Shown here: positions 27,767-45,570 of the stretch, one piece after another | Layout: each line of letters opens with the position of its first letter | How positions within the stretch are numbered: the first letter of the stretch is position 1 | Assembly (NCBI GenBank): GCA_012960535.1 | Contig: DUBB01000002.1 | Coordinates: 1-64,000, forward strand | DNA from: Gammaproteobacteria bacterium | GTDB lineage: Bacteria; Pseudomonadota; Gammaproteobacteria; Pseudomonadales; Azotimanducaceae | DNA: 64,000 nucleotides | Direction: 5' to 3' | Notes under the pieces: model-generated | The model's database searches: none | Told to the model about the DNA's origin: nothing | What the model saw: the letters and a program-made list of their open reading frames with translations, nothing else | Translations under genes and position numbers: made by a program

Positions 27767-27790
27767 GGGGTGTTTAACACCCCTTTTTTT
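27767..27790 (+). terminator. Rho-independent terminator after the TonB receptor gene
   Basis: GGGGTGTT and AACACCCC form a perfect 8-bp stem around a single base, flanked by AAAAA and a run of seven T. It ends the adenosine deaminase-receptor transcript. The ATG of the next gene (27791) touches the T-run, so that gene must have its own promoter inside or after the hairpin, or rely on read-through. Confidence 0.9.
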
Positions 27791-28885
27791 ATGGGTGGAA
27801 AAGTGAAAGTGAAAGTGAACGTGAAGTTGTGGCTATGCATTGCGGTAATATTTGGCTCCTTGCAGCCACTAGCACCTGGTTTTGCTTCACCTTTGGCTGT
27901 GAAGGTGGTCATCGTCGCCATGTTTGAAGTGGGCCAGGACACAGGCGATCGAGCAGGGGAGTTCCAACTCTGGAAAGAACGCAGGAACCTGACCCAGCAA
28001 CTGCCTTTCCTCGGCTATCGCGATCTTCACTATGATCCCCAAACCGGTTTGTTAGTGCTGGTTACCGGGATTGGCACAGCAAGGTCAGCCGCGGCCACCA
28101 TGGCGCTGGGATTGGATTCGAGATTTGATCTCAGCCAAAGTTATTGGATTGTAGCCGGGATAGCTGGTTTTGACCCCGCTGATGCGTCGGTGGGCTCTGC
28201 AGCCTGGGCTGAGTATTTGGTGGATGGTGATTTATCCCACGAAATAGATGCCCGGGAAATTCCCGAGGATTGGCCGTTTGGATACTTTGCTCGATACACG
28301 CAAAGGCCGTTTGATAAAAACAAACCCGAACCTACCGGTGAGATGTATCAATTGAATTCCGGATTAGTGAACTGGGCATTTGAGCTCACTAAAGATATTC
28401 AGCTTCCTGATAATGAGCAGGCCAGAGAACACCGAAAGCGTTATACCCAGCACCTCATGGCAAGGAAACCACCGTTTGTATTGAAAGGTGATCATATTGC
28501 TGCATTGACATTCTGGCATGGTGAGATCATGAATGACTGGGCCAATCAGTGGGTAAAGTACTGGACAAAAGGTAAAGGCGAATTCGTCTCCTCGGCAATG
28601 GAAGATACAGGCACCTATCTTTCCCTGAGCTGGCTCGATCGCATAGGTCGAGTAGATAAGCAGCGAATGCTGGTACTCAGGACGGCTAGTAATTACACCA
28701 CGCCGCCGCCGGGGGTGAGCGCTGCGGATAACCTAGGTTCGGAAATTAAAGGCTATTCCGGGTTGTCGATTGCCGTCGAGTCTGCCTATCTGGTGGCCTC
28801 TAAAGTGGCCGATACCTTGATAGCCGGATGGGATCAGTATGCTGAGCAGCTACCTGGGCAGGTGAATTCTGGGCAGGTGAATTGA
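27791..28885 (+). CDS. Purine nucleoside permease (NUP) family protein, exported, second copy
   Basis: Paralogue of the protein at 7.0 kb, sharing VVIVAMFEVGQDTGDRAGEFQ, GIGTARSAAATMALGLDSRFD, GIAGFDPADASVGSAAWAEY, EIDAREIPEDWP and MEDTGTYLSLSWLDRIGRVD. Signal peptide in residues about 12-36. Frame extends to a GTG at 27770 inside a terminator, which cannot be a start. ATG 27791 lacks a ribosome-binding site; a GTG at 27803 after GGTGGA is a real alternative. The C-terminus GQVNSGQVN comes from a perfect 15-bp tandem duplication. Adenine deaminase follows after three bases, so the two are co-transcribed. Confidence 0.83.
   Translation: MGGKVKVKVNVKLWLCIAVIFGSLQPLAPGFASPLAVKVVIVAMFEVGQDTGDRAGEFQLWKERRNLTQQLPFLGYRDLHYDPQTGLLVLVTGIGTARSAAATMALGLDSRFDLSQSYWIVAGIAGFDPADASVGSAAWAEYLVDGDLSHEIDAREIPEDWPFGYFARYTQRPFDKNKPEPTGEMYQLNSGLVNWAFELTKDIQLPDNEQAREHRKRYTQHLMARKPPFVLKGDHIAALTFWHGEIMNDWANQWVKYWTKGKGEFVSSAMEDTGTYLSLSWLDRIGRVDKQRMLVLRTASNYTTPPPGVSAADNLGSEIKGYSGLSIAVESAYLVASKVADTLIAGWDQYAEQLPGQVNSGQVN
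28854..28883 (+). repeat. Perfect 15-bp tandem duplication at the NUP C-terminus
   Basis: CTGGGCAGGTGAATT occurs twice in a row, adding five residues in frame just before the stop codon of the second NUP gene. The first NUP protein (7.0 kb) has no such tail, so this is a recent local duplication. Confidence 0.9.
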
Positions 28886-28888
28886 GTT

Positions 28889-29887
28889 GTGTCTAAAGCC
28901 GGCTTTGAATTCGTTGAGCGAGCGCCAAAAGCGGAATTGCATATACATATTGAAGGCTCGCTGGAACCCGATTTATTACTTCGGCTGGCTGAGAAAAATT
29001 CTGTGGTGCTGCCGTATAAGACCCTACAAGACGTTACCAGCGCTTACCAGTTTCAAGACCTGCAGAGTTTCCTGGATCTCTATTACCTGGGTGCCAGTGT
29101 GCTCGTTGATGAGGGAGATTTTTATGAACTGATGTGGCGTTACCTGTGCCGGTGCAGAAATGAAGGTATTGTTCATACTGAAATCATGTTTGACCCGCAG
29201 ACCCATACCCGGCGAGGGGTAAGCTTAGAAACGGTGCTGTCAGGCTTTTCCAGGGCGATTGTAAAGGCAGAGCAGGAATGGCAGCAATCGGTGTTGCTGA
29301 TACTCTGCTTACTCAGGGACCTTCCTGAATCTGATGCGATTCAGACTCTGACGGATGCTAGGCCCCTGCTTCAGCAGATAACAGCAGTAGGATTGGACAG
29401 CGCGGAAATAGGTAACCCACCGGCAAAATTCAGGAAGTCCTTTGAGATGGCGTCAAGCTGGGGGCTAAGGAAGGTGGCTCATGCTGGTGAAGAAGCCGGT
29501 CCAGAACTCATCAGAGAAACGCTCCGGGCGTTAGCGGTGGAGAGAATCGATCATGGTGTGCAGTGTATAAAGGATCCTGATTTAGTTATCAGCTTAGCGG
29601 AGACCAAAATACCGCTGACAGTCTGTCCGCTTTCTAATATCAGGCTTAAGGTGTATGACCGTCTTGAACAACACCCGATTCTGCAACTGCTGGATGCGGG
29701 CGTACGGGTAACGGTTAATTCAGATGATCCTGCTTATTTTGGCGGCTATTTAATGGAAAACTTCCGTGCTCTGGATCGCTCCCAGGGTTTGACCGAAATA
29801 CAGGCGCGGCAGCTGGTGAGAAATAGTTTTAGCGGTAGTTTCCTGCCCCATAATCGCAAGACGCAGTATCTGGATCAATTAAGATAA
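28889..29887 (+). CDS. Adenine deaminase (adenosine-deaminase-like, Aah1 type)
   Basis: Cytoplasmic 332-residue enzyme. PKAELHIHIEGSLEPDLLLRLA is the start seen in bacterial adenine aminohydrolases, distinct from the HVHLDGA of true adenosine deaminase. KVAHAGEEAGP, RIDHGVQC, CPLSNIRLKVYDR and VTVNSDDPAYFGGYL support adenine as substrate (adenine to hypoxanthine). Starts at GTG three bases after the NUP stop. Its last 13 bases overlap the end of the convergent allantoicase gene. An adenosine-specific enzyme is the less likely alternative. Confidence 0.85.
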   Translation: MSKAGFEFVERAPKAELHIHIEGSLEPDLLLRLAEKNSVVLPYKTLQDVTSAYQFQDLQSFLDLYYLGASVLVDEGDFYELMWRYLCRCRNEGIVHTEIMFDPQTHTRRGVSLETVLSGFSRAIVKAEQEWQQSVLLILCLLRDLPESDAIQTLTDARPLLQQITAVGLDSAEIGNPPAKFRKSFEMASSWGLRKVAHAGEEAGPELIRETLRALAVERIDHGVQCIKDPDLVISLAETKIPLTVCPLSNIRLKVYDRLEQHPILQLLDAGVRVTVNSDDPAYFGGYLMENFRALDRSQGLTEIQARQLVRNSFSGSFLPHNRKTQYLDQLR

Positions 29888-37503: not shown

Positions 37504-38556
37504 CTAGCCCCAGGTTTGCAATTTGTTAGATTCGGAATATTGGTCTATCGAAGTTTCCGTGCGCATAGCCACCGTGCTGTTATGGGTTTCGGGGTCAAGC
37601 GGTAAACCGGTGCCGTTTGCAACCTTGGTGATCCCGTTAAAGCCTGCTATAACGGCTACGGCATCGAGGCTTGCCTGCTCACCAAGTTCGCTGAAGGCAT
37701 TTTCACGTGCTGTCTGTATCATTGTCTTTGAACCCGTTACAATGGCGTCTGCTAGGGTCAGCAGAGTGGCTTCATTTGCTATGCCGATATCCAGAGAACT
37801 GGTATTGGTTAATTTTCCTAAATTGAAAGAAGTCTGGGTTCTATCGCCACTTCGACGAAGCAGCATGGTATGGGAAGTCGTTCAGTAGAAGCATTGATTT
37901 AACGATGAGACTCGTGCCGCCAGCATCTCCGTTTGACCTCTGGATAAGTCAAATTCCATATCACTCAGGCTGTAGTGTTTGCGCATCACCTTGAAAAACA
38001 GATCGATTGCCGTGGGCACTAAACCTAATGCTCTTGCAATATTAGGTGTGCTGGGTAAGCCGGTATTGGATGGGACATTTTTCACATCAAGGATGGGGAG
38101 CCAGGCTCCCGCATCGATGACATTTGGATTAGTGATTCTGGAAGGTTCTCCTTGTCTGGCTTTTAAAGGGGGTGATAATTCCTGGCCGGTACCTTCGGCA
38201 AAGGTATCCATGATAACGCCGCAGGCAATGATACCTAGCAATTCAATATACACTTCAGCTGGCATTTCTGGGCGTAGCCGGTTAAACCAAGATTGGGTCA
38301 ATCGGCCAGAATCGCTGCTGATCCTATGGATAACTTCGATATAGTCAGTCGGAAGATCCGAGACTGCGTCATGAAGGCCATCAATAGCGTACGGTGATAA
38401 CGCATTTTTTCTGGATTGGCAGAGGGCGCAGTCCTTGCTGTGCCGGCTTTCCAGAATGACCTGGTTGCGAGTCTTACCATCCAGCCATGTGCCTGGCCCG
38501 GCAATTTCTTCAAGGGCGGTGTGGTGTGCATCACTGATGGACTTACGTATCAGCAT
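37504..38556 (-). CDS. Two-domain AhpD-like (alkylhydroperoxidase/CMD) protein, candidate selenoprotein with CxxU
   Basis: Read through an in-frame TGA at 37882-37884, the protein is 350 codons long. The first AhpD-like domain has CALC at residues 43-46. The second has E210, then C222-F-Y-[TGA 225]-T-T-S-H229, which matches the AhpD active-site spacing E-x11-C-x2-C-x3-H with the TGA in place of the peroxidatic Cys. Sequence continues in frame and stays protein-like for 125 codons. A hairpin suitable as bSECIS lies 3' of the TGA. Without selenocysteine the product would stop at 224 residues, just before the key residue. Role inferred: peroxide or disulfide redox. Divergent from a beta-lactamase-like gene. 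Confidence 0.72.
37845..37884 (-). promoter_or_regulatory. Candidate bacterial SECIS element after the in-frame TGA
   Basis: On the minus strand, TGCTGCTTC and GAAGTGGCG pair into a 9-bp stem (including three G-U pairs) closed by a GTC loop. The loop begins with GU and its G lies 26 bases after the TGA, within the 16-37 base window typical of bacterial SECIS hairpins. The fold is by hand; a three-base loop is at the small end. Confidence 0.55.
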
Positions 38557-38667: not shown

Positions 38668-38762
38668 AAATTGTTGATAAGGGGTCATTTATCGCCTGGG
38701 TATGGTAACTTCAGGAGGTTGATTATTGATGGATAGATGATAAGCAAGGGAGTGTGGGAATT

Positions 38763-39974
38763 ATGAAAATAGACGCGCGGGCAGCTGGCTTTTCTGAACA
38801 GAGACTGACCAGAATCAACCAGCACCTTACCGAGAATTATATTGATAACGGCCGGATCCATGGTTGCCAGGTACTAGTTGCGCGTCATGGCTATCCCGCC
38901 CTGTTTGAGTCCTATGGCCTTAAAGATGCTGAACGAGGTCAGGCCATGGCGGCAGATACTATCTTTCGGATCTATTCCATGACCAAGCCGATTACTTCCA
39001 TCGCCTTAATGCAACTCTACGAGCGGGGTTTGTTTCAGCTCAATGACCCAGTCCACAGAGTGATTCCACAGTGGCGTGACCATCGAGTTTACCTATCCGG
39101 TGAAGGACAGTCCCTTAAAACCGAGACAGCCAGGGCACCCATGACTTTTCGGCATGTTTTGAGCCATTGTAGTGGCCTGACCTATGGAAGCTCTGTTCAT
39201 CCAGTAGACCAGGAATACCAGAGAGTGGGTGTCAGGCGCTCCGATGGAGAGACCCTGGGCTCCTTTGTAGAGAAGTTGGCCCAGGTGCCGCTGCGTTATC
39301 AGCCAGGTGAACAATGGCTTTATTCCCTTGCCACCGATGTTTGCGGGTATCTGGTCGAGACCCTATCGGGATTACCGTTTGATGAGTATCTGCAGGAATA
39401 TATTTTTGGCCCGCTTGGTATGACCGATACAGCGTTTCATGTTGCACCAGAAAAGCTGGACCGGTTTGCTGCTAATTACCAGCGGCGTACGGATAAAACC
39501 CTGAAATTGATTGATGATCCGTTAGATAGTAGTTATCAGCATAAACCTGACTTTTTTTCTGGTGGAGGCGGTCTGACAGGTACCACAGCAGATTATTACA
39601 GATTCTGCGAGATGCTCAGAGGTGGTGGTCAGTTAGATGGCGTCAGAGTTATCGGTTCGAGAACATTGCAGTTGATGACGCAGAATCATCTGAAAGGTGG
39701 GCGCGATTTGACTCAGATGGCGATAGGTGATTTCTCAGAAACCGCCTATGAAGGTGTTGGTTTTGGACTTGGTTTTGCCATGACACTGGGCCGAGTGGAA
39801 TCAGGTCAGGTAGCATCGGGCGACTACTATTGGGGTGGCGCGGCCTCTACTATTTTCTGGGTTGACCCACATGAAGATTTAGTTGTTGTTTTCATGACCC
39901 AGCTAATGCCTTCAGCTACCTTTAATTTTCGCGGCCAGTTGAAGAACATTATTTATGGTGCTATCGAGGATTGA
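38763..39974 (+). CDS. Serine hydrolase, class C beta-lactamase-like
   Basis: 403-residue member of the beta-lactamase/transpeptidase-like superfamily, more likely an esterase or amidase than a resistance enzyme. Nucleophile motif SMTK in YSMTKPITSIALMQLYERG, the Tyr motif YSLATDVCGYLVE, and the third motif region YYWGGAASTIFWVDP are seen. No signal peptide is evident, so it is likely cytoplasmic. GTG 38754 is an alternative start; the AAGGG upstream is suited to either only weakly. Confidence 0.87.
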   Translation: MKIDARAAGFSEQRLTRINQHLTENYIDNGRIHGCQVLVARHGYPALFESYGLKDAERGQAMAADTIFRIYSMTKPITSIALMQLYERGLFQLNDPVHRVIPQWRDHRVYLSGEGQSLKTETARAPMTFRHVLSHCSGLTYGSSVHPVDQEYQRVGVRRSDGETLGSFVEKLAQVPLRYQPGEQWLYSLATDVCGYLVETLSGLPFDEYLQEYIFGPLGMTDTAFHVAPEKLDRFAANYQRRTDKTLKLIDDPLDSSYQHKPDFFSGGGGLTGTTADYYRFCEMLRGGGQLDGVRVIGSRTLQLMTQNHLKGGRDLTQMAIGDFSETAYEGVGFGLGFAMTLGRVESGQVASGDYYWGGAASTIFWVDPHEDLVVVFMTQLMPSATFNFRGQLKNIIYGAIED

Positions 39975-40068
39975 AGGCACATTCGGAAATCGGTGTATAC
40001 TAAGTGTTTAAACAAGCAAGAATGATTTTTTATTCCCGTGGATTGCAGCATTACGAGAGGAGCAGATA

Positions 40069-40911
40069 GTGACGGATACTTTTAATACTATTCGATATGA
40101 AGGAGTGACAAATGGCGTCGCCAGGATTGTCCTAGCCAGGGAAGCGGCGCGAAATGCACAGGATAAGGCCATGCTGTATGAGTTGAATGCTGCTTTTGAT
40201 ATCGCCGCTCAGGATGATGATGTGAATGTCATAGTGCTGGCTGCGGACGGGCCACACTTCTCCTCTGGTCACGATTTACGAGACCGCTCGAAGATGTCTG
40301 ACTTTAAGCCCGTGGGAACCTGGGGAGGTTTTACATTGCCCGGATCTGAAGGGTCTATGGCAGTCGAGGAAGAGATTTACCTGGGATTCTGTTGGCGGTG
40401 GCGGAACATACCTAAACCTACCATTGCGGAAGTGCAGGGCAAGGTCATAGCGGGGGGACTGATGCTGGTGTGGATCTGCGACTTGATTATCGCCAGCGAA
40501 GATGCGGCTTTTTCTGATCCTGTGGTTGCTTTTGGAGTCAATGGGGTTGAGTATTTTGCCCACCCGTGGGAAGTGGGTGTTCGCAAGGCAAAAGAGATGC
40601 TGTTCACTGGTGAAGCGATTACGGCAGAACAGGCTAAATCTCTGGGCATGGTCAATCATGTTGTGCCCAGGGCGGAACTCACTGGTTTTACCACTGATAT
40701 GGCCGAGCACATTGCCCGGCGGCCCAGTATGGGATTGAAGCTTGCCAAGCAATCGGTGAATCAGATGCAGGACAGTCAGGGGCTATGGCCTGCGTTGCAG
40801 GCTGCAATGTCTTTGCAGCAATTGGGGCATGCTAATAATCACCAGATTCACGGTATGGGCGTTGACCCTAAGGGTGCTGAGATTATTCGGGCCCAGGCCA
40901 AAAAGACCTGA
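40069..40911 (+). CDS. Enoyl-CoA hydratase/isomerase (crotonase) family protein
   Basis: 280 residues. Crotonase fold with VNVIVLAADGPHFSSGHDL (oxyanion loop) and VQGKVIAGGLMLVWICDLIIASEDAAFSDP (second oxyanion residue). The usual catalytic Glu positions are not both obvious, so reaction type is uncertain. GTG start with GAGAGGAG well placed. A TGTTTAAACA palindrome at 40005-40014 lies 55 bases upstream and may be an operator. Convergent with the next crotonase gene. Confidence 0.87.
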   Translation: MTDTFNTIRYEGVTNGVARIVLAREAARNAQDKAMLYELNAAFDIAAQDDDVNVIVLAADGPHFSSGHDLRDRSKMSDFKPVGTWGGFTLPGSEGSMAVEEEIYLGFCWRWRNIPKPTIAEVQGKVIAGGLMLVWICDLIIASEDAAFSDPVVAFGVNGVEYFAHPWEVGVRKAKEMLFTGEAITAEQAKSLGMVNHVVPRAELTGFTTDMAEHIARRPSMGLKLAKQSVNQMQDSQGLWPALQAAMSLQQLGHANNHQIHGMGVDPKGAEIIRAQAKKT

Positions 40912-41032
40912 GCTTCAGCAGCCAGGTCTGCGCCTCAGGTGAATTGCTGATAAAGCCGTTAGGCAAGTTGCCGTCACTGGCAATGCCTGCTGTTCATTCA
41001 CTTGTATAATAGCCAGTGGTTTGCTTTTCCCA

Positions 41033-41863
41033 TTAATCTTTTTTAGTGCGGTAGTCTCCGAACTGGGCGTCTCTAGAGCTGAGTGCGTCGGTCAGGCCAG
41101 CAGCCAGTTCCTTAAAGTGGGCCTGGGTTGATTTGGTATGAAATGCCAGTGCCTGAATCTCAGTACCTGAACGAATTGCGGCTCGCATGCCCATCAGTTC
41201 CAGTTGTCGATGGACAGCCCGTTTGTTCATTTGCTGCAGGTCAGGCGGCACCTTAGCGACACGCTGAGCAATCTCAATCACTTTCTGTTCCAGATCTTCT
41301 TCCGGGAAGGCTCGGTTGGCAAACCCTTGTTCCGCTGCTTCGACGCCGGATATGGCATCACCTGTTAACATCATTTCCATGGCGTTGCGAAGACCTAGCA
41401 GGTGCGGGAAGAATTGATTATCGGGTGGGCTCATTGATCGTACGACTGGGTAGCCTATCTTTGCATCCCGGGCAACATAGACCAGGTCACAGGAGGTAGC
41501 CAGCTCGGTACCGCCAGCCAGGCAATAACCGTGTACCTGGGCTATTACCGGTTTAGCCAGATCCCAGACGCCAAAAAAGCCATCTACAACATGGCGTGGC
41601 CAATTACCATCACCGCCGGCAGTGTGAAATGGTTGATCATCGCGGTTATTTGCTTTGAGATCATAGCCTGCACAGAAAGCTTTACCTGCGCCACGGATGA
41701 TGGTTACTCGAATTTCAGGGTCACGATCGTTGCCCTGCAAGGTGCCATAGAGCTCCGTGCGCAGCGTGTTATTCAGTGCGTTCCTGGATTCCGGTCGGTT
41801 CAGGGTAATCCTGGATACGTGATCAGCCGGCTGATCGACGATGATATGTTTAAAATCACTCAT
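41033..41863 (-). CDS. Enoyl-CoA hydratase/isomerase (crotonase) family protein
   Basis: 276 residues. ITLNRPESRNALNNTLRTEL, IIRGAGKAFCAGYDLKAN and QVHGYCLAGGTELATSCDLVYVARDAKIG are crotonase signatures. Overlaps the upstream PPOX-family gene by eight bases, so it is the third gene of a Rieske-PPOX-crotonase operon starting at 43702. Likely hydrates an unsaturated CoA ester in the breakdown of the cluster substrate. Confidence 0.9.
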   Translation of the reverse strand: MSDFKHIIVDQPADHVSRITLNRPESRNALNNTLRTELYGTLQGNDRDPEIRVTIIRGAGKAFCAGYDLKANNRDDQPFHTAGGDGNWPRHVVDGFFGVWDLAKPVIAQVHGYCLAGGTELATSCDLVYVARDAKIGYPVVRSMSPPDNQFFPHLLGLRNAMEMMLTGDAISGVEAAEQGFANRAFPEEDLEQKVIEIAQRVAKVPPDLQQMNKRAVHRQLELMGMRAAIRSGTEIQALAFHTKSTQAHFKELAAGLTDALSSRDAQFGDYRTKKD

Positions 41864-42431
41864 GGTTTAGCCCTCTTCGTATAAGTTCCTGTTCAAAGCG
41901 AATCGTATCTGCTTCAAGTGGTGCCGCTAACTTTGACGGATCAAGTGTACCCATAGCATGGTCGCGCATTTTGATACCGTCATAGGTTATCCATTTTTCT
42001 GGTTTTACCTCCAGAACAATGCGCATGGGAGAATTCAGCATTTCTTCAAAGGCCTTTGCTTCGTCAGGATCCGGCCGCAGGGCACCGGCGAATTCTGGGT
42101 AGAACCAGTCTTTGATCGCCTGGTCATTGTGAATGGTGCAGGTTCCCTTGATGGTAACAGTTTTGCTTCTGCCCATTGAGGTACCGGTAGAGGTAATCAC
42201 AATTGAAGTTTTTGGATTTCGTCTGACCGCCGATATGCGGTGTCTATGGGCACCGGCTGTGAGCCAGATTCGACCATTTCGCCAGATATAAGACATGATC
42301 ACGCCCATAGGCCATTCATCTCTTGTACACCAGTTGAAAACACATTCTTTCTGTTCTAGCAGGAGCTTGTCCCGGTCCTCGGGATCGAGCTGATAGATAG
42401 ACACTTTTTCGTGGTCTTCGGCTTTATCCAT
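41856..42431 (-). CDS. Pyridoxamine 5'-phosphate oxidase-fold flavin protein
   Basis: 191 residues of the split-barrel flavin-binding type: WPMGVIMSYIWRNGRIWLTAGAHRHRISAVRRNPKTSIVI, then SKTVTIKGTCTIHND, ending with VLEVKPEKWITYDGIKM. Relatives use FMN or F420 and often reduce unsaturated ring compounds or haem-like molecules. Lies between a Rieske oxygenase (90 bases upstream) and a crotonase with which it overlaps, so it probably serves the same pathway. The cofactor cannot be decided here. Confidence 0.8.
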   Translation of the reverse strand: MDKAEDHEKVSIYQLDPEDRDKLLLEQKECVFNWCTRDEWPMGVIMSYIWRNGRIWLTAGAHRHRISAVRRNPKTSIVITSTGTSMGRSKTVTIKGTCTIHNDQAIKDWFYPEFAGALRPDPDEAKAFEEMLNSPMRIVLEVKPEKWITYDGIKMRDHAMGTLDPSKLAAPLEADTIRFEQELIRRGLNHE

Positions 42432-42520
42432 TTAATCATTGCTCCTTTTAACAATACCGGGTGGGGTGAGCCTCTAGCTTATCGGTTTGCCCCAGGCTTA
42501 TCAGGGTGTCCGATGGTCCC

Positions 42521-43702
42521 TTAGTCATTGTTTGTGAATAAGGCAGGGAGGTCTTTATCGGAGGTTGCTATCAAACGGTCAACCCATTGATGAAAACGCT
42601 GCCCTCCGCCCTCATTGCGACCGAACATCACATAGTCCTTACCACCAGATTCAAGGGCGACCTGCTGCTTGATGCCAGTCGCGTAGTCTTCCTCCTGCAC
42701 AACGTATTTAAGAAAATCGAATTGCGCTCTGGCGGCCTCGACCTGCTCTTCTGATGGCGCCTTTTCCATTAGATAATGCTGTACCGTGTAGGAAGTGGCC
42801 GGTGTTTCACCAGGAAACAGCTGGGACAGCATGATGGCTCTGCCACCACCATCAAAACTAGCGATTGAGATGTGCGGAAAGATAGTCCAGACGCCATTTA
42901 ATAGATGACCTGTAGGCCACAGGGATTCATCAAGCTCTTCATATTGGGATAGGGAAATATCAGGTCCAGTGACTCTCTGGTGAGGTCCCCAGTTATAATA
43001 ATTTGCTTTGTTGGGATAGTCTGGACCGAAAGTATCCTTATGAAGTATGGGCAGGTGATACAGGTCCAGATAGCCGTCGTAGGCGATTTTCCAGTTTGGG
43101 CCCTTGATGGTCTGGTGAGCGAAGTAATGCCAGTTGGCAAAATCAAACTGTCCAAGCATTTCATCGTAGTTGCATAAGAAATCCTCAATGGAAAGCGTCG
43201 TATTACGATTCAGAGTGACCCATATGAGGCCTGCTCTTTCCAGGCAGGGTAACTCTGTCAGGCTATGGCACTGCTTATCCAGGTCACCAAAATCCTTGTT
43301 AGAATAGATGGAAGTGAGTTCACCTTCACTATTGTATGACCAGGCGTGATAGGGGCAGGTAAAGCGGTGCGAATTGCCTCTGCCTTCGGGCATGATCTGG
43401 GCACCACGGTGACTGCACATGTTAAAGAAAGCTTTCACCTCGCCACTTTCTGTTCGACTCAGCAGGATGGGTACATTTGCGGCTGTCAGCGCTTTCCAAT
43501 CACCAGAGGCAGGTAGTTCCGCCGTCGTTGCCATCAGCAGGGGTACTCTTTTGAATATCTGTTTCATTTCCTGTTGCCAGCGATCATGGTCGAAGTAGTG
43601 CTCGGCAGGCACCTGGTAGATGTTTTCAGTTTGATTGATTGTACCGGCTCTGGCATGGGCCAGATTAGCCTTTGCAATTTCAATGAGCTTTGACCTGGAC
43701 AT
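42521..43702 (-). CDS. Rieske non-haem iron oxygenase, alpha subunit
   Basis: 393 residues. The Rieske [2Fe-2S] site is CSHRGA (Cys-x-His) and CPYHAW (Cys-x2-His) around residues 92 and 115. The mononuclear iron site is DGYLDLYHLPILHKD (His-x4-His). No ferredoxin or reductase partner is encoded nearby. First gene of a Rieske-PPOX-crotonase operon; the start codon is 65 bases from a perfect 22-bp palindrome at 43767-43788. Substrate unknown. Confidence 0.92.
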   Translation of the reverse strand: MSRSKLIEIAKANLAHARAGTINQTENIYQVPAEHYFDHDRWQQEMKQIFKRVPLLMATTAELPASGDWKALTAANVPILLSRTESGEVKAFFNMCSHRGAQIMPEGRGNSHRFTCPYHAWSYNSEGELTSIYSNKDFGDLDKQCHSLTELPCLERAGLIWVTLNRNTTLSIEDFLCNYDEMLGQFDFANWHYFAHQTIKGPNWKIAYDGYLDLYHLPILHKDTFGPDYPNKANYYNWGPHQRVTGPDISLSQYEELDESLWPTGHLLNGVWTIFPHISIASFDGGGRAIMLSQLFPGETPATSYTVQHYLMEKAPSEEQVEAARAQFDFLKYVVQEEDYATGIKQQVALESGGKDYVMFGRNEGGGQRFHQWVDRLIATSDKDLPALFTNND

Positions 43703-43766
43703 TCTTCCCTCCCTTTAAAATACTATCAAACCATATTTGACGTGAAGCTTCGATGGTGAGTTAATT

Positions 43767-43788
43767 AAACCGTCAAGTTTGACGGTTT
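43767..43788. promoter_or_regulatory. Perfect 22-bp palindrome, cluster operator copy 1
   Basis: AAACCGTCAA and TTGACGGTTT form ten-base arms with a two-base centre, between the Rieske gene (start 43702, minus strand) and an SDR gene (start 43820, plus strand). It fits half-sites AAACnnTCA/TGAnnGTTT found at two other promoters in this cluster. Likely TetR-type operator. Confidence 0.7.
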
Positions 43789-43819
43789 TCAACTTAACAA
43801 AAATAAGGTGGGGATGTAT

Positions 43820-44575
43820 ATGCTAAATGATTTATTTAACTTAACGGGGCAAACTGCAGTTGTCACGGGTGCAGGTCGAGGAATCGGCGAAGGTATTGCA
43901 AAAGTTTTGGCAGCAGCAGGTGCGAGCGTCATCTGTGCTGCCCGACGGGTAGACGAAATTCAGCGTGTCGCAGCTGAAATAAATGCTGCCGGTGGTAGTG
44001 CCAAGGCGTGTGCAACGGATGTCACAGATCTGGATTCGGTGAATCAGCTGGCGAAATTCGCCTGCGATGAAACCGGTGGATTGCATATGTGGGTTAACAA
44101 TGCAGGCGGCTCTCCGGTACAGAAACCGCTGCATCTTCTGGATAAAGAAGAGTGGGATCGAACCCTGGCATTGAATTTAACGGCTGTCTGGCACTGTACC
44201 CGAGTCGCTGCTGAAACGATGGATGAGGGTCGAATATTGAATATTTCTTCCTTGGCAGCAGAAGATGTCATTCCAGGCAGTGGTCATTACTCTGCAGCCA
44301 AAGCGGGTGTGAATATGCTCACCAAGACCTTTGCCCAGGAACTTGGACCGAGAATTCGAGTTAACTGTATTATGCCGGGTGCTGTCCCCACCGAGATCAT
44401 GATGCAGGCTTTAAATCTCAAGGATGAAGATCTGCCAAAATTAGAGAGTATGCTACGTTTGCCTGCGGGCCGGTTAGGCAAACCAGAAGATTTAGGTGCC
44501 GCTGCCTTGTTTCTGCTGGCCCCGGCTTCAGCCTGGATAACCGGGCAGAACATTCGCGTTTCCGGAGGTCCCTGA
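43820..44575 (+). CDS. Short-chain dehydrogenase/reductase
   Basis: NAD(P)-dependent oxidoreductase, about 251 residues. Nucleotide motif TGAGRGIGEG, then NNAGG, Ser in LNISSLAAEDV and Tyr/Lys in HYSAAKAGVNML. Frame opens at GTG 43808, but ATG 43820 (MLNDLFNLTGQ) is seven bases after AAGGTGGGG and fits the family start. Stop TGA shares its last base with the next gene's ATG, so the two are coupled. Confidence 0.92.
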   Translation: MLNDLFNLTGQTAVVTGAGRGIGEGIAKVLAAAGASVICAARRVDEIQRVAAEINAAGGSAKACATDVTDLDSVNQLAKFACDETGGLHMWVNNAGGSPVQKPLHLLDKEEWDRTLALNLTAVWHCTRVAAETMDEGRILNISSLAAEDVIPGSGHYSAAKAGVNMLTKTFAQELGPRIRVNCIMPGAVPTEIMMQALNLKDEDLPKLESMLRLPAGRLGKPEDLGAAALFLLAPASAWITGQNIRVSGGP

Positions 44576-45570
44576 TGAAGAATCGTAAAGTAGTTTTAGC
44601 GGCAAGACCAGATGGGCAGCTCAAAGAATCGGATATGCGTGTTGTTGAAGAGGAAGTTGCCGAATTGGGCGATGGCATGGTACTGCTCCAGATCGAGCAC
44701 TTGTCCATAGATGCCTTTATCCGAACCACTTTTGATGAAGCGGCTTTTCATGGCACAGCTGAACTGGGTAACGCGATCATTGCCCTGGGCACAGCGCGGG
44801 TCCTGGATAGTCGATTTGAAGGCCTGCACCAGGGAGATGCAGTTTTCGGGCCGGTCTGCGCGCAGGAAAAGGTAGCTCTACCGGGGGTAATGTTACAGAA
44901 AATTGATGATAGCCAGTTACCAGCAAGATGCCACCTGGGTGTGCTTGGTTTAACCACTGGCATGACTGCCTACGCCGGCATGTTGAAGGTCGCGAAGGTC
45001 AAAAAGGATGATCTGGTGGTGGTGTCAGCTGCTGCTGGGGCCGTTGGTTCCTGTGCCTGCCAGATTGCAAAACTGCAGGGTGCAACCGTGATAGGAATTG
45101 CTGGGGGTGAAGAAAAAGGCAGTTTTCTGAGAGAAGAAATAGGCTGCGATTCAACTATAGATTACAAGCAGGGTAATGTCAGCGAACAGTTAATGGAATT
45201 GGCCCCCGAGGGTGTTGACGTGTTTTTTGACAATGTAGGTGGCGAAATCCTGGATGATGTACTGGCAAATATTAGGCCGGGGGCTCGAATAGTCATTTGT
45301 GGTGCCATATCCCAATATGAGCGAGTTGGCGAAGTCAATGGTCCCGTAAACTACCTGAAACTGGCGGAGCGGAATGCGTCGATGGGGGGGTTCACAGTGA
45401 ATTATTTCGAACAGGATTATCCCGAAATGCAGGAAAATCTGGGCAAGTGGGTAATGGAAGGTAGCCTGCGATTACCCGAGCATATAGAAGAGGGCATCGA
45501 CCAGTTCCCGAAAGCGTTAACCCTGCTGTTTTCCGGTGGGCATAAAGGCAAGCTCATGGTAGCGCCTTGA
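44575..45570 (+). CDS. NADP-dependent medium-chain oxidoreductase (YncB/PTGR type)
   Basis: 331-residue zinc-free MDR protein of the leukotriene B4 dehydrogenase/curcumin reductase group. LAARPDGQLKESDMRV at the start, then VVVSAAAGAVGSCACQIAKLQGATVIGIAGGEEK as the NADP fold and FDNVGGEILDDVLANIRPGARIVICGAISQYE. It usually reduces alpha,beta-unsaturated carbonyls. Overlaps the SDR stop by one base (TGATG). A related partial gene is at 63639. Confidence 0.9.
   Translation: MKNRKVVLAARPDGQLKESDMRVVEEEVAELGDGMVLLQIEHLSIDAFIRTTFDEAAFHGTAELGNAIIALGTARVLDSRFEGLHQGDAVFGPVCAQEKVALPGVMLQKIDDSQLPARCHLGVLGLTTGMTAYAGMLKVAKVKKDDLVVVSAAAGAVGSCACQIAKLQGATVIGIAGGEEKGSFLREEIGCDSTIDYKQGNVSEQLMELAPEGVDVFFDNVGGEILDDVLANIRPGARIVICGAISQYERVGEVNGPVNYLKLAERNASMGGFTVNYFEQDYPEMQENLGKWVMEGSLRLPEHIEEGIDQFPKALTLLFSGGHKGKLMVAP

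Follow-up and report, generated by a model that had tools for sequence, protein, structure and literature searches.

A probable selenoprotein of the AhpD-related NF041238 family with a predicted two-domain fold in a gammaproteobacterial genome

AhpD is an adaptor for AhpC. Among the families named after it is NCBIfam NF041238 (AhpD_rel_CFYUT, 'alkylhydroperoxidase-related (seleno)protein'). The available text of the 2005 Sargasso Sea selenoproteome presents hypothetical protein 1 as a new family of four sequences with a conserved CXXU motif and gives it no function (PMC1088965), and a table in a 2026 review lists 'AhpD-related protein (hypothetical protein 1, Sargasso Sea metagenome), NF041238, CxxU' (PMC13188914). 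Fused two-domain AhpD-like proteins are discussed, in the part of the paper that could be consulted, for bacteria (YciW and other fused dimers) and for the Sestrins (PMC11429811).

The gene described here (37504..38556, minus strand) lies in the window, by which we mean the whole 64-kb stretch of DNA that was analysed. Translated on the minus strand, positions 38556 to 37504 gave one 350-residue frame (350 codons plus a TAG stop) containing a single in-frame TGA at codon 225 (37882..37884, minus strand). The frame carries the motif E210-x11-C222-x2-U225-x3-H229, with 125 sense codons downstream of the TGA; translation thus confirmed the position of the TGA, its placement relative to E210, C222 and H229 and the length of the downstream frame as given in the initial annotation. 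The same annotation had called the protein a candidate new selenoprotein; that it is new is not supported. It scored 366.9 bits on NF041238 (cut-off 175) across model positions 1-356 of 357, all 66 aligned members matched the same model, and residues 222-226 read CFYUT with the U encoded by TGA. In its full-length match, CFYUT motif, single Sec and CxxU site the window protein is like NF041238 and the hypothetical protein 1 of 2005, and nothing essential differs, although a two-domain fold does not feature in the available text of their descriptions (PMC13188914, PMC1088965). The window protein is therefore a member of the known NF041238 family, and the selenoprotein is already in print. Neighbouring models fitted less well: TIGR00777, the AhpD family proper, reached 12.9 bits against a cut-off of 191.95, TIGR01926 reached 38.6 bits, below its cut-off of 81.8, and NF053654 (YciW-related (seleno)protein), like NF041238 named as a possible selenoprotein, was matched by one of the 66 members, weakly (1.9e-4). 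Taken jointly, the selenoprotein and family assignments appear virtually certain from the sequence comparisons.

A member over the cut-off was present in 137 of 206 genomes of the family-rank group. Outside this group the family is sparse: the order draw had members in 17 of 390 genomes, four of them in other families, and the class (1/369) and phylum (1/398) draws each had one genome over the cut-off, in both cases the genome of the window itself. That genome has three copies, on contigs C2, C16 and C48, with one TGA each; the copies at G000:C16:94452-95513 (L010/L082) and G000:C48:1987-3021 (L083) share 28% and 30% identity with the window copy, respectively. No relatives were found in viral contigs or plasmids.

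The protein had been described as two-domain AhpD-like, and here the predicted structure agrees whereas sequence searches detect the second domain only. The C-terminal AhpD/CMD-like domain with the CxxU site (37552..38064, minus strand) is recognised by Pfam, fold and PDB sequence matches: Pfam (E up to 1) placed CMD at residues 203-238 only, and among solved structures the closest in sequence are AhpD-like proteins, with 6k40 at E 9.4e-15. The N-terminal domain (38107..38556, minus strand) is AhpD-like by fold only. In the AlphaFold2 model (66 sequences; pLDDT 95.6, pTM 0.94) similar helix sets occur at residues 27-122 and 206-316, and C43 and C222 each directly precede the helix following the first long one. 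Folded alone, the N half gave a pLDDT of 94.2, and AhpD/CMD proteins occupied ranks 1-20 of its 44 Foldseek matches (E 0.21-2.5, probability 0.30-0.92, rmsd 8-12 A); a profile comparison of one half with the other was weak (E 0.011, probability 3.9%, 35 columns). From the model, the N half is likely to be a second, diverged AhpD-like domain that arose by duplication.

The full-length model was compared with solved structures by Foldseek. Single-domain AhpD-like proteins (6k40, 2prr, 3c1l, 2oyo) matched part of the chain; among the matches listed (50 of 129), those covering most of the chain at a probability >0.5 were eight Sestrin2 or Sestrin-GATOR2 chains only. Sestrin chains among the matches listed were those in 5t0n, 5dj4, 9lvj and 9lwf ('dual sensor bound GATOR2'), with probability 0.80-0.98, TM 0.41-0.47, rmsd 12-16 A and E 0.05-0.44. 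No Sestrin sequence match was found in Pfam (E up to 1) nor among 13 PDB sequences (E up to 10). Human Sestrin2 likewise has two AhpD-like domains per chain and matches the fold over its full length, and in the alignment made here its site Cys, Tyr and His correspond to C222, Y224 and H229 (site as given in the available text of PMC4674687). It differs in that its active site lies in the N-terminal domain, Leu occupies the Sec position and the sequences do not match. The AhpD-like peroxidase-related proteins (TIGR01926; 6k40, 2oyo, 2prr, 3c1l) share the E-x11-C-x2-C-x3-H site of the C-terminal domain but are single-domain proteins without the N-terminal half, and in the alignments 6k40 and 2oyo have Cys where the window protein has Sec. 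YciW has two AhpD-like domains, as the window protein does, but a different Cys spacing, according to the portion of that paper at hand (PMC11429811). In the open-access literature searched, no paper linking the NF041238 family to a Sestrin-like architecture was found, and the Sestrin-like two-domain fold, together with the hairpin-less Cys paralogue described below, may be unreported so far. A likely fold for NF041238 makes its function testable and lets the Sestrin architecture be compared with a bacterial protein.

E210 (37927..37929) and H229 (37870..37872), the presumed proton-relay Glu and His, and C222 (37891..37893; all minus strand), the partner of Sec in CFYU, were invariant, with Y224, in 87/87 members. 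The normal CALC pair attributed to the first domain is indeed there, at residues 43-46 (C43-x-x-C46, 38419..38430, minus strand), with C43 kept in 85/87 and C46 in 83/87 members. It is missing or incomplete in four of the 87, including the C48 copy of the same genome (another of the four, L145, is a shortened frame only), and a relay through C43/C46 therefore cannot be general. At positions 31 and 50, the counterparts of E210 and H229 if judged from the spacing of the motif, the N-terminal domain has mainly V/I and K, respectively; this domain usually keeps C-x-x-C but is without the Glu and His. Two more distant records, L195 (G437:C40) and L196 (G440:C28), have the TGA and the hairpin and no N-terminal C-x-x-C, and are possibly a separate subfamily.

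By analogy with AhpD and Sestrin2, Sec225, aided by H229 and E210, would attack an organic hydroperoxide or a disulfide, and C222 would then close a selenenylsulfide with Sec225. A cellular dithiol would re-reduce the selenenylsulfide, possibly by way of C43/C46. The UGA at codon 225 is very probably decoded as selenocysteine with the help of the conserved downstream hairpin, SelA, SelB and tRNA-Sec, a reading supported by comparison. On the analogy with AhpD and Sestrin2 the protein is reasonably likely to be a peroxidase or a thiol-disulfide enzyme with Sec225 as the attacking residue. A more specific proposal, that the chain is a Sestrin-like fused AhpD pseudo-dimer with Sec in domain 2 and the C-x-x-C of domain 1 acting, in most members, as an in-chain relay, is speculative and we consider it unlikely, slightly more so given the further members that lack the N-domain Cys pair; no description of a two-site selenoenzyme mechanism for any AhpD-like protein was found in the open-access literature searched. 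The explanation as a whole, an NF041238 selenoprotein with two AhpD-like domains and a redox role, we regard with high confidence.

Within such a redox role, the protein may act as a Sec-dependent thiol-disulfide reductase, or as an adaptor for another redox protein, rather than as a direct peroxidase. The AhpD-type site and the second C-x-x-C present in most chains would suit this function, and the family name, being based on similarity only, leaves room for it. Set against it, as weak evidence, no partner gene was common across the neighbourhoods examined, and we think of the reductase or adaptor as a possible but somewhat doubtful alternative. The window gene stands alone, with a convergent DUF5916 gene on one side and a divergent beta-lactamase-family (PF00144) gene on the other. 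Clustering of genes within 6 kb revealed no operon partner, no neighbour family being common to more than 12 of 58 loci. The neighbour families scanned (PLP Cys/Met enzyme, ABC transporter, hydrolases, methyltransferase, acyl-CoA dehydrogenase, enoyl-CoA hydratase, MFS, amidohydrolase and TetR) look like local synteny. Beside the selenoprotein gene, positions 38754-45570 of the window hold two enoyl-CoA hydratase genes, a Rieske oxygenase and short-chain and zinc dehydrogenases, and look like a catabolic island.

A rival reading is that codon 225 is a true stop in a decayed or split AhpD-like gene, what follows being either a relic or a gene of its own of ~120 residues. In its favour, one scan of the 64-kb window found frames split by TGA (5), TAG (2) and TAA (4). 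TGA-split frames alone are not rare in the window, so the case for selenocysteine rests on comparison. Codon 225 was TGA in 87/87 distinct members, a count that includes the window gene. The same TGA occurs in records L008 (93% identical) and L009 (73%), and a sequencing error at this codon was accordingly judged unlikely. The members came from 95 loci, where a loose motif gave 102 matches, 95 of them distinct; eight TGC/TGT matches that on visual inspection looked like unrelated frames and lacked the CFY motif were discarded, which left the 87. The loose motif required either a stop or Cys at the codon, and other residues could not show up; L065, which entered with two TGA, yielded no row among the members. 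An 85% identity filter left 72 members, of which alignment A1 took 66 (six omitted) and alignments A2 and A3 took 40. As the source rows of the 87 were nearly all TGA-bearing, 44 family genomes with further rows, chosen by hand count, were searched again. This returned 77 rows, 72 with TGA (one of these also with TAA) and five without a stop, four of which cover the N-terminal half only, the fifth being a full-length Cys form. In all three wider draws (order, class and phylum), every row over the cut-off had a single TGA. Among rows outside the 87, L195 and L196 are the only two in which the TGA was seen to occupy the Sec codon.

A SECIS-like hairpin lies downstream of the TGA (37845..37865, minus strand). 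The initial annotation had reported a 9-bp hairpin with a GU loop 26 nt after the TGA; it folds as 8 bp (9 with the U-G wobble pair at its end) around a GUC loop at 37854-37856, the G of which is 26 nt after the TGA. According to the available text of the review, bacterial SECIS elements have a G at loop position 1 or 2 and an apical loop 16-37 nt after the UGA, with an upper stem of 4-16 bp and a loop of 3-9 nt (PMC13188914), and the G at +26, 3-nt loop and 8-bp stem of the window lie within these ranges. The hairpin is not unusually stable (z -0.29; 74 of 200 shuffles equalled or exceeded it), which alone would be compatible with a true stop, and when the first 48 nt are folded, the minimum-energy structure of many members is not the conserved hairpin. 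What raises the case above chance is conservation, in the TGA of 87/87 members, the pairing of codons +8 and +10 and the restriction of Leu and Ser codons. The third bases of codons +8 and +10 paired in 86/86 members (C-G 74, T-A 11, T-G 1), a level reached by 0/2000 shuffles, and a G stood 26 nt after the TGA in all 86; one of the 87 was dropped for an N, and the Cys form is outside this count. Leu +8 was encoded by CTC or CTT only (86/86, versus 914 of 2654 at the other Leu positions of the same genes) and Ser +11 by AGC or AGT only (82/82, versus 836 of 2009 Ser codons). The third-base covariation and codon bias point to selection on the RNA.

The full-length Cys form, at G513:C41:9762-10808 (L193), is the sole one seen, and its existence disposes of the reading that the family has no Cys form. 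It has TGC at the site of codon 225 (ECFYC), scores 348.1 bits on NF041238 and is ~41% identical to its nearest members. The hairpin is gone from this gene: Leu +8 is TTA, and the loop G is absent because codon +9 is AAG, where most members have CGT or CGG. The expectation had been Cys in selenium-free species and TGA in others. A Cys form at this position was borne out; its host was not selenium-free, as the G513 genome has selA and other rows there reach TGA copies, so the Cys form is a paralogue in a Sec-capable genome. This paralogue with its lost hairpin serves as a natural control for the selenocysteine reading, and strong comparative evidence, including such a natural change from Sec to Cys, is thereby available for a little-studied selenoprotein family.

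A search of the genome of the window for the selenocysteine machinery, as suggested in the initial annotation, found selA, selB and tRNA-Sec, each over its cut-off (569.7, 425.8 and 49.8 bits, respectively). The selA and selB genes adjoin (G000:C42:94701-96038 and 96077-97936), and the tRNA-Sec gene lies ~35 kb away at C42:133371-133459, its score on the Rfam model being just over the cut-off of 47. Its anticodon loop, CTTCAAA, gives the anticodon UCA. ARAGORN calls this gene (L085:3370-3467, G000:C42) tRNA-Lys(ctt), in disagreement with the Rfam match and the loop, both of which indicate tRNA-Sec. Within the family-rank group, selA was present in 118 of the 137 genomes having the gene and in 51 of the 69 without it (Fisher p 0.036), a co-occurrence confounded by genome completeness and by selA being nearly ubiquitous. 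Of the 19 gene-bearing genomes without selA, two had selB and six were >=90% complete and <=5% contaminated; tRNA-Sec was over the cut-off in two of six genomes tested that lack selA. In two genomes of the same genus, G576 (96% complete) and G577 (93%), the TGA gene is present (L092, L093) and selA and selB were not found. The tRNA-Sec model scored 45.8 in both, which carries no weight because a second match in the genome of the window, serine-type in appearance, scores 45.9. These two genomes count against the selenocysteine reading, and in favour of a true stop, unless their assemblies have gaps.

A decayed or split gene ending at the TGA is nevertheless rejected as highly improbable, since the TGA occupies the same codon in 87/87 members, with identities as low as 26%, and is flanked by invariant residues, the hairpin shows third-base covariation and is gone in the one Cys form, and the Sec machinery is present in the same genome. 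The same comparisons, TGA conservation, covariation, loss of the hairpin in the Cys form and the machinery, support the original proposal of a selenoprotein with a C-x-x-U site, and the window gene very probably reads its in-frame TGA as selenocysteine. Elsewhere in the window, on the plus strand at 27770-29887, a TGA at 28883 separates two long ORFs (371 and 332 aa) that share a frame; a GTG lies directly 3' of this TGA, and the two ORFs are probably two adjacent genes.
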